The notes beneath the pieces are model-generated. The model was not told the DNA's origin and did not search any database. It saw only the letters and a list, made by a program, of their open reading frames with translations. 62,301 nucleotides of DNA from an uncultured Archangium sp. (GTDB taxonomy: Bacteria > Myxococcota > Myxococcia > Myxococcales > Myxococcaceae): positions 1 through 62,301 of the forward strand of contig CAIVGN010000144.1 in the NCBI GenBank assembly GCA_903905455.1, written 5' to 3'. Both the position numbers and the translations under genes were made by a program. This document shows, one piece after another, positions 50,097 through 54,225 of the stretch. Position 1 is the stretch's first letter. Each line of letters starts with the position of its first letter.

Positions 50097-50561
50097 GTGC
50101 ACCCCAACGCGCAGCTGATCACCGACTTCTACGCGGCCTTCGCGCGGCAGGACTCCGCCCCGATGCGCGCGGCCTACGCGCCGGACGCCCACTTCAGCGA
50201 CCCCGCGTTCCCCGCGCTGCACGGCCCCGCCGTCGGCGACATGTGGACCATGCTCTGCCAGCAGGCGAAGGACTTCCGCCTCGAGTTCCGCGACGTGAAG
50301 GCCGACGATCGCCAGGGCTCCGCGCACTGGGAGGCCTGGTACCTCTTCGGCGGCAAGCGCCCGGTGCACAACGTGATCGACGCGCAGTTCACCTTCGAGA
50401 ACGGCCGCATCACGCGCCACGTCGACCACTTCGACTTCTGGCGCTGGAGCCGCCAGGCGATCGGCCCCGCGGGCCTGCTGCTGGGGTGGACGCCTTTGCT
50501 CAAGCGCGCCGTAGCCAGCCGCGCCAACGCCTCGCTGGCGGCCTGGCAGAAGCGCCGCTGA
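50097..50561 (+). CDS. SnoaL-like (NTF2-fold) protein
   Basis: A 154-residue protein with an NTF2/SnoaL-like fold: LITDFYAAFARQDSAPMRAAYAPDAHFSDPAF (by parts LITDFYAAFARQD, APDAHFSDPAF), then WEAWYLFGG and ARHVDHFDFWRWSRQA-like tail. Members are small hydrolases, isomerases or ligand-binding proteins; the activity here cannot be assigned. The GTG start lies one base after the UspA stop. It ends three bases before the convergent sspB gene. Confidence 0.8.
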   Translation: MHPNAQLITDFYAAFARQDSAPMRAAYAPDAHFSDPAFPALHGPAVGDMWTMLCQQAKDFRLEFRDVKADDRQGSAHWEAWYLFGGKRPVHNVIDAQFTFENGRITRHVDHFDFWRWSRQAIGPAGLLLGWTPLLKRAVASRANASLAAWQKRR

Positions 50562-50564
50562 GGC

Positions 50565-51053
50565 TTACTTCACGACGCGCAGGTGACCACGCTTCGGGGC
50601 GGTGGGCGCGTCCTTGACGGGCTCGTCACCTTCGCCCCGCTCGATGACCACCTCGCGCAGCACGGCCCGGGCCTTCTTCTCGTCGGGCTCGGGCGAGGGC
50701 GGCAGCTGGGCCTTCTCGGTGGCGCTGTCGGCCAGCTCGGCGGGCATGTCGTCGGGGAACATCCAGAACTCGCGGGTGGTCAGCGAGGCCACCGCGTAGA
50801 GCGCCGACCACGGCACCGCGATGGTGAACCGCGAACCGCCGAACGAGAGCGTCTGGCGAATGCCCCACGGGCTGACCGCGAGATCCGGCGGGTCGAAGCG
50901 GTACGAGATGTTCAGCACGAGGTGGTGATCGCCCTTGAACTTCTCGGGCACGAGGACCCCTGGACGCCGCGCGTCGAGGTGGATCTGGGTCATGCCCTTT
51001 TCGAGGCACTCCAGCACCTGGTCCTTCTTCTCCAGCTCTTTGCGCTCGGTCAC
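50565..51053 (-). CDS. sspB: ClpXP protease specificity factor SspB
   Basis: Adaptor that tethers ssrA-tagged proteins to ClpXP, 162 residues. The substrate-binding domain has GVLVPEKFKGDHHLVLNISYRFDPPDL (by parts VLVPEKFK, LVLNISYRF) and GIRQTLSFGGSRFTIAVPWSALYAVA (by parts). A long acidic linker leads to the C-terminal tail RGHLRVVK, which matches the LRVVK ClpX-docking peptide of E. coli SspB. It is directly downstream of smpB, three bases apart, so tagging factor and degradation adaptor share a transcript. Confidence 0.9.
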   Translation of the reverse strand: MTERKELEKKDQVLECLEKGMTQIHLDARRPGVLVPEKFKGDHHLVLNISYRFDPPDLAVSPWGIRQTLSFGGSRFTIAVPWSALYAVASLTTREFWMFPDDMPAELADSATEKAQLPPSPEPDEKKARAVLREVVIERGEGDEPVKDAPTAPKRGHLRVVK

Positions 51054-51056
51054 CGC

Positions 51057-51527
51057 TCAGTGTCTCCGCATGGCGCGATCCATCTCGCGCTTCGCTTCTC
51101 GGTCCTTGATCGTGTCTCGACGATCGAGGCCCGTCTTTCCGCGACCCAGGCCCAGCCTGACCTTGGCCTTGCCGTTCTTGAAGTACAGCACCAACGGCAC
51201 GATGGAATAACCCCGCTCGGCCACCTTTGCTGCCCAGCGCTCGATCTCCACCCGGTGCAGCAGCAGCTTGCGCCGCCGAATGGGCAGATGGCTGAACACC
51301 GACGCGGGCTTGTAGGCCCCGATGTGGGCGTTGTGCAGGAACAGCTCGCCCTTCTCCGGCAGGGCGTAGGCGTCGGACAGGCTGGCCTCGCCGCCCCGCA
51401 ACGCCTTGACCTCGCTGCCCATCAACACGAGGCCTGCCTCGAGCGTGTCGTCGATTTGGTAATCGAAGCGCGCTCGGCGGTTCTCGCAGATGAGCTTTTC
51501 TTCGTTGTCGGGCTTCTTGGCGGCCAT
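51057..51527 (-). CDS. smpB: tmRNA-binding protein SmpB
   Basis: Binds tmRNA (ssrA) to rescue stalled ribosomes, 156 residues. The family motifs are ICENRRARFDYQID, EAGLVLMGSEVKALRGGEASL (by parts VLMGSEVKALR) and the Lys/Arg-rich tail RKTG-type GRGKTGLDRRDTIKDREAKREM (by parts). The C-terminus ends with helix-forming MDRAMRRH. The ATG at 51527 follows a CAGGAC site. The ssrA RNA gene itself is not nearby: the 68-base gap to panC contains only a short palindrome. Confidence 0.96.
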   Translation of the reverse strand: MAAKKPDNEEKLICENRRARFDYQIDDTLEAGLVLMGSEVKALRGGEASLSDAYALPEKGELFLHNAHIGAYKPASVFSHLPIRRRKLLLHRVEIERWAAKVAERGYSIVPLVLYFKNGKAKVRLGLGRGKTGLDRRDTIKDREAKREMDRAMRRH

Positions 51528-51595: not shown

Positions 51596-52456
51596 TCAGC
51601 CGAGGGTCAGCGCCACGTTGTCGATGAGCCGCGTGGTGCCCATGAAGGCGGCCACCAGCACCCGGGCCGGGCTGCCTTTCTCGAGCTGGGTGAGCTTCAC
51701 CAGCGAGCGGGCGTCGCAGATCTCCACGTAGTCTTCCCGGGCCTGCACCGCGGCCAGCTCGGCGCGGATCACCGCCACCAGCCGGGCCACGTCGGCTTCG
51801 CCCTTCGCGGCGAGGGCCTGGGCGGCGAACAGCCCCCGCGAGAGGCCCAGCGCGCGGCGGCGCTCGTCGGGGCCCAGGTAGCTGTTGCGGGAGCTCATCG
51901 CGAGGCCGTCGGGCTCGCGAATGGTGGGCATGCCCACGATCTGGGCGCCCAGCTCGAGGTCGGCGTTGAGGCGGGCGATGACCTGGAGCTGCTGGTAGTC
52001 CTTCTCCCCGAAGAGCGCGACGTCGGGCCGGAAGAGCGCCAGCAGCTTGGCGACCACCGTGGCCACCCCGCGAAAGTGCCCCGGCCGCTTCTCGCCGTCG
52101 AGGCCCTGGCTGACCTGCTCCACCAGCACCGCGGTCTGGAACCCCGGGGGGTACATCGTCGAGGGCTCGGGCATGTACACCCCGACCACGCCGGCGCTGG
52201 CGCAGCGCGCGAGATCTCCCTCGGTGTCCCTGGGGTAGGAGCTCAGGTCTTCCTTCGGCCCGAACTGCATGGGGTTGACGAAGATGCTCGCCACCACCAC
52301 GTCGGCCCGGCGGGCCCCCTCGCGCATCAGCGAGAGGTGCCCGTCGTGCAGGAAGCCCATGGTCGGGACCAACGCAATGCGCTGGCCCCGCTGCTGAACG
52401 GACCGAACCCACGCGCGCACCTCGGCGGGCGTCTTCCAGACGGTCGGGCCGCTCAT
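51596..52456 (-). CDS. panC: pantothenate synthetase
   Basis: Joins pantoate and beta-alanine with ATP, 286 residues, last step of vitamin B5 synthesis. The ATP-site HIGH-like motif is LVPTMGFLHDGHLSLM; KDYQQL and MSSRNSYL are the other family segments. It follows panB by four bases, so both are made together. ATG at 52456. Confidence 0.97.
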   Translation of the reverse strand: MSGPTVWKTPAEVRAWVRSVQQRGQRIALVPTMGFLHDGHLSLMREGARRADVVVASIFVNPMQFGPKEDLSSYPRDTEGDLARCASAGVVGVYMPEPSTMYPPGFQTAVLVEQVSQGLDGEKRPGHFRGVATVVAKLLALFRPDVALFGEKDYQQLQVIARLNADLELGAQIVGMPTIREPDGLAMSSRNSYLGPDERRRALGLSRGLFAAQALAAKGEADVARLVAVIRAELAAVQAREDYVEICDARSLVKLTQLEKGSPARVLVAAFMGTTRLIDNVALTLG

Positions 52457-52460
52457 CAGC

Positions 52461-53351
52461 TCAGACCGGCACGCCGTAGACCGCGCTCTTCTCTTCCGGC
52501 CCGCCCGGCGTGACGTCGGGGTTCGAGGCGATGAGGCGCATGTTGGCGCTGCGGAACGAGTGTTCGTCGTCGGGGAACGTGCCCTCGCGGACCTCGTCGA
52601 AGTACGCCTTGGCGGCCGCGTTCACGTCGTTGGAGAGCATCGCGTAGTGCTTGACGAACTTCGGCTTGAAGTGCGGGTTGAGCCCCAGCAGGTCGTAGCA
52701 GACGAGCACCTGGCCATCGCAGTGCTTGCCCGCACCGATGCCGATGGTGGGGATCGAGAGCCTCGAGGTGATGGTCTTCGCGAGGTCGAGCGGCACGCCC
52801 TCGAGCACCACCGCGTAGCAACCGGCCTTCTCGATGGCGACGGCGTCGTCGAGCAGCTTGCGCGCGGTGTCTTCGTCGCGGCCCTGCACCACGTAGCCGC
52901 CCATCTTGTGCACCGACTGCGGCGTGAGCCCCAGGTGCCCCATGACGGGCACCGAGGCGCGCACGATGCGCTCGATGACGTCGGCGAACTCCGCCCCGCC
53001 CTCGAGCTTCACGCTGCCCACCCCGCCCTCGGCCACCAACCGGCCCGCGTTGCGGACCGCGTCTTCGACCGAGTTCTGGTAGCTCATGAACGGCATGTCG
53101 CCGACCACGTGCGCCCGCTTGGTGCCGCGGGTGACGGCGCGCGAGTGGTAGACCATCTGGTCCATGGTCACCGGCAGGGTCGAGTCGTGACCCTGCACCA
53201 CCATGCCCAGCGAATCGCCCACGAGCAGCATGTCGGCGCCGGCTTCATCGAACAGCCGCGCGAACGTCGCATCGTAAGCAGTGACCATGCAGATCTTCTG
53301 ACCTGCGGCCTTCATCTTCTTGACGGTGTGGATGGTGACCTGGTTCTTCAC
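52461..53351 (-). CDS. panB: 3-methyl-2-oxobutanoate hydroxymethyltransferase
   Basis: First committed step of pantothenate synthesis, making ketopantoate, 296 residues. Motifs: [43 protein letters not shown] (by parts [19 protein letters not shown]), [43 protein letters not shown]. The GTG start at 53351 has AGGAGGTGA upstream, the closest to the anti-16S consensus in the window. It is the first gene of the pan pair. Confidence 0.98.
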
Positions 53352-53468: not shown

Positions 53469-54116
53469 CTATTTCCTGCTGGGCAGCGGTTGGTAGTGCA
53501 CCGTGCCCTTCTTCGTCTGGCGGATGACCTGCATCAGGTTTTCCAGGTCATCGGGGTTGTTGACGAAGTCGATGTCGGAGGTGTTGACCACCAGCAGCGG
53601 CGTGTCGGTGTAGTGGAAGAAGAAGTCGTTGTACGACTTGCACAGCGACTCCAGGTAGCTGACGTCGAACTTGCGCTCGAACTCGCGGGCGCGCTTCTTG
53701 ATGCGCCCCAGCAGCACGTCCATGCGGGCCTGGAGGTAGATGACCAGGTCGGGCTTGGTGACGCGGGGCCCCAGCGCCTCGAAGACCCGCTCGTAGAGCC
53801 CCAGCTCGTTCTCGTCCAGCGTGAGCGCGGCGAAGATCCGGTCCTTGGCGAAGAGGTAGTCGCTGACCGTGACGCTGGCGAAGAGGTCCTGCTGGAAGAG
53901 CTCCTGCTGCTGCTTGAAGCGCGAGAGCAGGAAGAACATCTGCGTCTGGAACGCGTACTTGGCGCGGTCCGAATAGAAGCTCGCGAGGAAGGGGTTCTCC
54001 TCGACGACCTCCATCACGCGGCGGGCTTGAAAGCGCTCCGCGACGATGTTCGTCAACGACGACTTCCCGACCCCGATGGGCCCCTCGACGACGATGTAGC
54101 GGTGATCCAGTTTCAT
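53469..54116 (-). CDS. deoxynucleoside kinase
   Basis: Deoxynucleoside kinase of the dNK/dGK/dCK family, 215 residues. P-loop GPIGVGKSS at residues 12-20, conserved EENPFLASFY and the DRIF/ERS-like segment with KDRIFAALTLDENE, then the ARMDVLLGRIKKRAREFE lid region (by parts). Phosphorylates deoxynucleosides for salvage. The start is ATG 54116; an upstream alternative would add an unusual Cys/Pro-rich leader. The 117-base gap to panB shows nothing clear. Confidence 0.88.
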   Translation of the reverse strand: MKLDHRYIVVEGPIGVGKSSLTNIVAERFQARRVMEVVEENPFLASFYSDRAKYAFQTQMFFLLSRFKQQQELFQQDLFASVTVSDYLFAKDRIFAALTLDENELGLYERVFEALGPRVTKPDLVIYLQARMDVLLGRIKKRAREFERKFDVSYLESLCKSYNDFFFHYTDTPLLVVNTSDIDFVNNPDDLENLMQVIRQTKKGTVHYQPLPSRK

Positions 54117-54225
54117 GCGCGCCGAGGCCGATTTTCCGGGCTGAAATTGAGGTCGCGCACAGAACCACAAGCCCACCGTTCACGCAACGGAACTCCGGAA
54201 TTGCCGAGCAAGATCAAGCCGTTCA

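Follow-up and report, generated by a model that had tools for sequence, protein, structure and literature searches.

The stretch of DNA analysed here (the window, 62,301 nucleotides from an uncultured Archangium sp.) carries smpB and sspB side by side on its minus strand, at the end of a run of genes that also includes panB and panC. The features discussed below are as follows.

53469..54176, minus strand: deoxynucleoside kinase gene (dNK), first gene of the conserved block (PF01712, 146 bits)
52461..53351, minus strand: panB, upstream on the same strand, in the conserved block (PF02548, 395 bits)
51596..52456, minus strand: panC, upstream on the same strand, in the conserved block (PF02569, 331 bits; TIGR00018)
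51057..51527, minus strand: smpB, tmRNA-binding protein of 156 aa (PF01668, 181 bits; NF003843, 196 bits; TIGR00086, 173 bits)
51064..51067, minus strand: GGAG within the 3' end of smpB, a possible sspB ribosome-binding site (sequence inspection)
50565..51053, minus strand: sspB, predicted ClpXP adaptor of 162 aa, GTG start, 3 nt past the smpB stop (PF04386, 44.8 bits; profile match to 8et3 at 2.6e-13; fold match)
50703..51053, minus strand: folded substrate-binding core of SspB, about residues 1-117 (AlphaFold pLDDT; VIA-align Z)
50568..50591, minus strand: RGHLRVVK, C-terminal tail of the ClpX-docking (XB) type (aligned with the C-terminus of E. coli SspB)

The smpB stop codon (TGA, 51059-51057) and the sspB start codon (GTG, 51053-51051) are separated by GCG, and the earlier note was thus correct in placing the two genes three bases apart. 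This gap of 3 nt makes co-transcription of smpB and sspB likely. The GGAG motif lies inside smpB, 10 nt ahead of the sspB GTG, and translation of the two genes may be coupled. The two genes are distant from each other in E. coli, where sspB is part of sspA-sspB. The SmpB protein is a member of PF01668 and passes the NCBIfam equivalog cut-offs (NF003843, 196 against 130 bits; TIGR00086, 173 against 119 bits). As the run on the same strand also holds panB, panC and probably dNK, co-transcription would not be specific to tagging and disposal, nor would it imply equal amounts of SmpB and SspB. On the other side of sspB lies a convergent SnoaL-like gene, and the ends of the two genes are only 3 nt apart (window 50561-50565), too close for a separate terminator to fit in between.

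Identity, fold and tail of the SspB protein

The sspB product scored 44.8 bits against PF04386, for which the Pfam gathering cut-off is 27, but did not reach the score required by the NCBIfam SspB equivalog models, which fit narrower groups (best NF008764, 38.8 bits against 191). Because it passes the former and misses the latter, it is best read as a divergent member of the SspB family. A phylum profile, made from an alignment of 28 Myxococcota sequences and searched against the PDB, matched E. coli SspB (8et3) at E 2.6e-13, with a match that extends through the C-terminal LRVVK, and matched Caulobacter SspB weakly (E about 0.1). An AlphaFold model of the monomer, built with 40 related sequences, gave mean pLDDT values of 85-96 for the blocks to residue 100, with the linker and tail (residues 120-161) of low confidence or disordered. 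Foldseek returned significant matches to only 19 chains, all of them SspB proteins or the Agrobacterium homologue 2nys (E 4.5e-6 to 3.4e-4). The VIA-align Z scores were 13.5 to 1ou8, the complex of Haemophilus influenzae SspB with the tag, 12.8 to 1ox9 and 11.2-11.5 to Caulobacter SspB, whereas no unrelated chain scored above 6.9. One SspB was found in the window's own genome.

Across the alignment, most Myxococcota SspB proteins end in (R/K)GHLR(V/L/I)V(K/R) or a close variant, and the linker ahead of it varies freely. A kept tail on a variable linker is as expected of a tethered ClpX-docking peptide, to which the tail of the window protein would correspond. Misannotation as SspB was ruled out by the profile, the fold and the tail taken together, and the claim that this is a real SspB which keeps an LRVVK tail of the ClpX-docking type stands. 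In its fold (VIA-align Z 11.7-13.5), its disordered linker and its C-terminal LRVVK, the protein resembles the SspB of E. coli and H. influenzae (PF04386; 1ou8, 1ox9, 8et3), and here too the tag of the genome ends in ALAA. It differs from them in a core identity of 20-26%, in falling short of the equivalog cut-offs and in the position of its gene beside smpB. The fold is likewise that of Caulobacter crescentus SspB-alpha (2qas, 2qaz), to which, however, the match in sequence is weak.

Gene order of sspB, smpB and ssrA in Myxococcota

The order of sspB, smpB and ssrA was compared across 193 Myxococcota genomes (coded G001 and onwards, in families coded f1, f2 and onwards), where f1 is the family of the window, Myxococcaceae, as judged by named relatives. 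Within f1, smpB and sspB were adjacent in 86 of the 86 genomes in which both could be placed; four draft genomes (G126, G173, G188, G190) lack both genes. All 30 named loci, among them that of Myxococcus xanthus AM003, likewise had the two genes adjacent; the gap between them was 33 nt at the median and ranged from -4 to 109. Such recurrence, in genomes and named loci alike, ruled out chance adjacency. Beyond f1, the two genes were adjacent in f4 (2/3) and in f7 and f9 (2/4), and the pair was not seen in the other families checked, sspB and smpB lying apart in f3, f6, f8, f11, f12, f15 and most others. The pair characterizes Myxococcaceae together with a few sister families, not the phylum; the expectation that it would be conserved in Myxococcota, raised in the earlier note, held throughout Myxococcaceae and failed at the level of the phylum.

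Two loci in this comparison were unusual. In one f1 genome the sspB behind smpB is split over two frames on a single contig (G090:C1:6163550-6164061, f1/g7), which is a frameshift or a sequencing error, and the tag there is still ANDNVELALAA. A Myxococcus-like dNK-panB-panC-smpB-sspB locus was also found in a record titled Comamonas sp. KCTC 72670 (L169, BNCN01000011.1), probably a mislabelled genome.

In the window, sspB closes a longer dNK-panB-panC-smpB-sspB block. The dNK-panB-panC-smpB part is kept in f1, f4, f7, f8, f3 and f2, panC-smpB also in f16, and nearly every named Myxococcaceae locus has panC close to smpB. The link between smpB and sspB is no older than the panB-panC-smpB block. 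Because sspB ends this older block, finding the two genes adjacent throughout the family is weak evidence, and the conservation there may be a matter of operon inertia. A possible, though doubtful, account of the locus is thus that a true sspB was added to an ancient pantothenate block of which smpB was already a part, and remained there with no selection for co-expression with tagging. The proximity of panC and smpB would fit this account, as would the retention of the block in families whose sspB has another position or is divergent (f2, f3, f8), the presence of panC-smpB in f16, and the lack of linkage between sspB and smpB in most other families. What it leaves poorly explained is that sspB has come to lie not only beside smpB, in Myxococcales, but also next to ssrA in five further families, and that ssrA itself stands behind smpB in f8, a set of coincidences that chance is unlikely to have produced.

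The five families in which sspB adjoins ssrA are f5, f12, f15, f29 and f31. The two genes are on the same strand in f5 (G080, 88 bp apart) and f12 (G026, 90 bp), and divergent in f15 (G005, 129 bp), f31 (G053, 279 bp) and f29 (G057, 188 bp). In the sister family f8, ssrA fills the slot behind smpB, about 67 nt away, and in f3 (G148) it lies about 1 kb further on, past smpB. Repeated association of sspB with smpB or ssrA by chance is unlikely because random placement would, by our own estimate, bring two given genes this close in a few per ten thousand genomes or lineages, the occurrences being counted by family here.

The smpB-ssrA gene pair occurs in many bacteria (PMC4131195). The Myxococcota loci are like it in that genes of trans-translation are clustered, f8 keeping ssrA immediately after smpB within that conserved block; they are unlike it in Myxococcaceae, where the slot behind smpB holds a disposal adaptor. 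A 2014 survey of 2012 smpB neighbourhoods leaves SspB unmentioned in its text (PMC4131195), and reviews place SspB in beta-, gamma- and perhaps alpha-proteobacteria (PMC3985003) or 'only in certain proteobacteria' (PMC8138137). Our search, which covered the open literature, found no paper on a Myxococcota SspB, which is weak evidence of novelty, and no description of the sspB/ssrA linkage pattern or of the covariation of tag and adaptor set out below. The components are known, and it is their arrangement and covariation that are informative; the pairing at this locus has modest interest by itself, to which the linkage and covariation across the phylum add. SspB is widespread in Myxococcota, with lineages that have kept it, carry another type, or have reduced or lost it.

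The ssrA tag and its covariation with SspB

One good copy of the tmRNA gene was found in the window's own genome, on a contig other than that of the window (C242), and it encodes the tag ANDNVELALAA, which as added to proteins reads AANDNVELALAA, that is (A)ANDNVELALAA. The tag is not truncated, and an N-terminal ND segment precedes its ALAA; the candidate SspB-binding segment for which the earlier note had looked to the tmRNA is therefore present. In E. coli, AANDENY is needed for SspB binding and ALAA for ClpX (PMC8512704). Compared with the E. coli tag, AANDENYALAA, AANDNVELALAA is one residue longer and differs in its central residues. The Caulobacter tag has an NDN(F) element, comparable with NDNV in the tag of the window's genome. 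The genome also encodes two full-length ClpX paralogues (427 and 428 codons), each with a zinc-binding domain and an AAA+ module. A third open reading frame with a ClpX-type zinc finger was noted; the three (L199, L200 and L201) lie on contigs C115, C75 and C29.

It is highly probable that the gene behind smpB encodes a genuine SspB adaptor which binds the N-terminal half of the tag and delivers tagged proteins to ClpXP. tmRNA-SmpB would rescue stalled ribosomes by adding AANDNVELALAA, and the SspB core would bind the N-terminal half of the tag, namely ANDNV and probably also the next E/D and hydrophobic residue. The flexible linker ends in LRVVK, which would dock on the zinc-binding domain of ClpX, leaving the exposed ALAA to enter the ClpX pore. 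That this SspB binds the tag and docks on ClpX is predicted from homology and from the covariation described next; delivery of tagged proteins to ClpXP is likewise a prediction.

Among the tmRNA tags read, from about 90 genomes, those of all 35 genera that carry a Myxococcota-type SspB were 11-12 aa long, and these tags start with ANDNV except in two families (f10, ANDDV; f28, ANSDK). Tags of 9 aa, with variable N-terminal halves and a conserved LAA, were found in seven of the ten genera without a detectable SspB. In f13, where SspB was found in none of nine genomes, six genera had six different 9-aa tags (ANEPMALAA, ANNELALAA, ANNQLALAA, ADSQMPLAA, ANSEMQLAA and ANDNLALAA), and in f16, where SspB was not detected, the tag is ANENLALAA. 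The mean pairwise identity over the first five residues was 0.90 among 16 families with SspB as against 0.47 within f13, and over the last three residues it was 0.83 among the former as against 1.00 in f13. In 10,000 random draws of six SspB-bearing families, no set reached the variability of f13. Both the identities and the resampling were computed without three exceptions, G014, G004 and G034, which combine an 11-aa tag (ANDNVELALAA, ANDNAGLALAA and ANDNVELRAAA, respectively) with no detectable SspB: an unfiltered hmmsearch showed none beside smpB or ssrA in these three genomes, and whole-genome searches of G004 and G014 found none either. At the level of families the association of tag and SspB is modest, with a Fisher p of 0.009 (15/0 against 2/3 families), or 0.035 without the divergent family, each lineage being counted once and kinship uncorrected.

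Absence of SspB had also been indicated by the Pfam scan for G080 (f5), G018 (f23), G044 (f29) and G051 (f30). Long tags were noticed in genomes without a Pfam match, after which a custom profile was run, and it found a divergent SspB in each of these four and overturned their apparent absence.

The half of the tag that would bind the adaptor thus tends to stay where a normal SspB is present, and to be shortened or scrambled in most lineages without one. We consider it fairly probable that tag and SspB co-evolve as lock and key, such that SspB maintains the N-terminal half of the tag and, upon loss or divergence of SspB, this half shortens by two residues and drifts with the ClpX end fixed; the adaptor would then belong to the trans-translation gene set of the phylum, with sspB settling repeatedly near smpB or ssrA. 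An unlikely alternative is that the association reflects shared ancestry only, short tags having arisen in a few lineages from causes that have nothing to do with SspB. The 9-aa tags are indeed limited to three lineages (f13, f16 and f2), and the three SspB-less exceptions have kept 11-aa tags. However, six N-terminal halves in six genera of f13, all with an identical LAA end, speak for relaxed constraint on the adaptor half in particular, and f12, with a different type of SspB, has yet other tags.

E. coli SspB also delivers RseA to ClpXP, and one may ask whether the Myxococcota protein serves mainly such other substrates, the tag not being its principal ligand. The structure of E. coli SspB with RseA (1yfn) is among the best fold matches to the window protein, and a long tag persists in some genomes without a detectable SspB. 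We nevertheless regard this as very unlikely, given that the length and N-terminal sequence of the tag track the presence of SspB and that sspB clusters with smpB or ssrA. The states of SspB in Myxococcota, together with the tags, amount to a natural experiment from which the reason for the tag's adaptor half might be learnt.

Variant SspB proteins and tags

Family f2 is probably Anaeromyxobacteraceae, a name that we infer; every tag read from it was ANEPMALAA. A complete absence of SspB from f2 was partly rejected, as it has a divergent relative of SspB, and only this, without LRVVK (L137-L141). The relative shares with Myxococcota SspB a central PGV.LPEYL...W(G)IR..LTF.GRRFDCA.PW (E about 1e-14 to 1e-16), but has another N-terminal part and ends in RPRF.VIEGGKKD in place of LRVVK. 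It was not found beside smpB in the genomes checked. Family f2 possibly represents a re-tuned pair of tag and adaptor.

In f12, SspB is of a different type, with Pfam scores of 84-131 bits that are far above those of other Myxococcota (L010-L013, L107), and was possibly acquired horizontally; the tags of this family are ANDEPMALAA, ANDEPSLAMAA and ANDDFVAVAA. The reduced genomes of f26 (0.3-1.8 Mb) encode SspB cores without LRVVK, three of which end right past the core (L143-L146), and four of the five tags read were of the ANNN type. The Myxococcota lineages, taken with their tags, supply further combinations of tag and adaptor, which are candidates for orthogonal degradation systems.

Two single genomes with SspB have unusual tags. 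In G038 SspB is present and the tag, ANSDKEYALAAA, is atypical, which counts against the favoured reading. For G001 (f11, L114), whose genome has SspB, ARAGORN reported a tag of 28 aa, ANNDTASYVDLTTVRVANGDMGMVACAA, which is probably a misread tmRNA.
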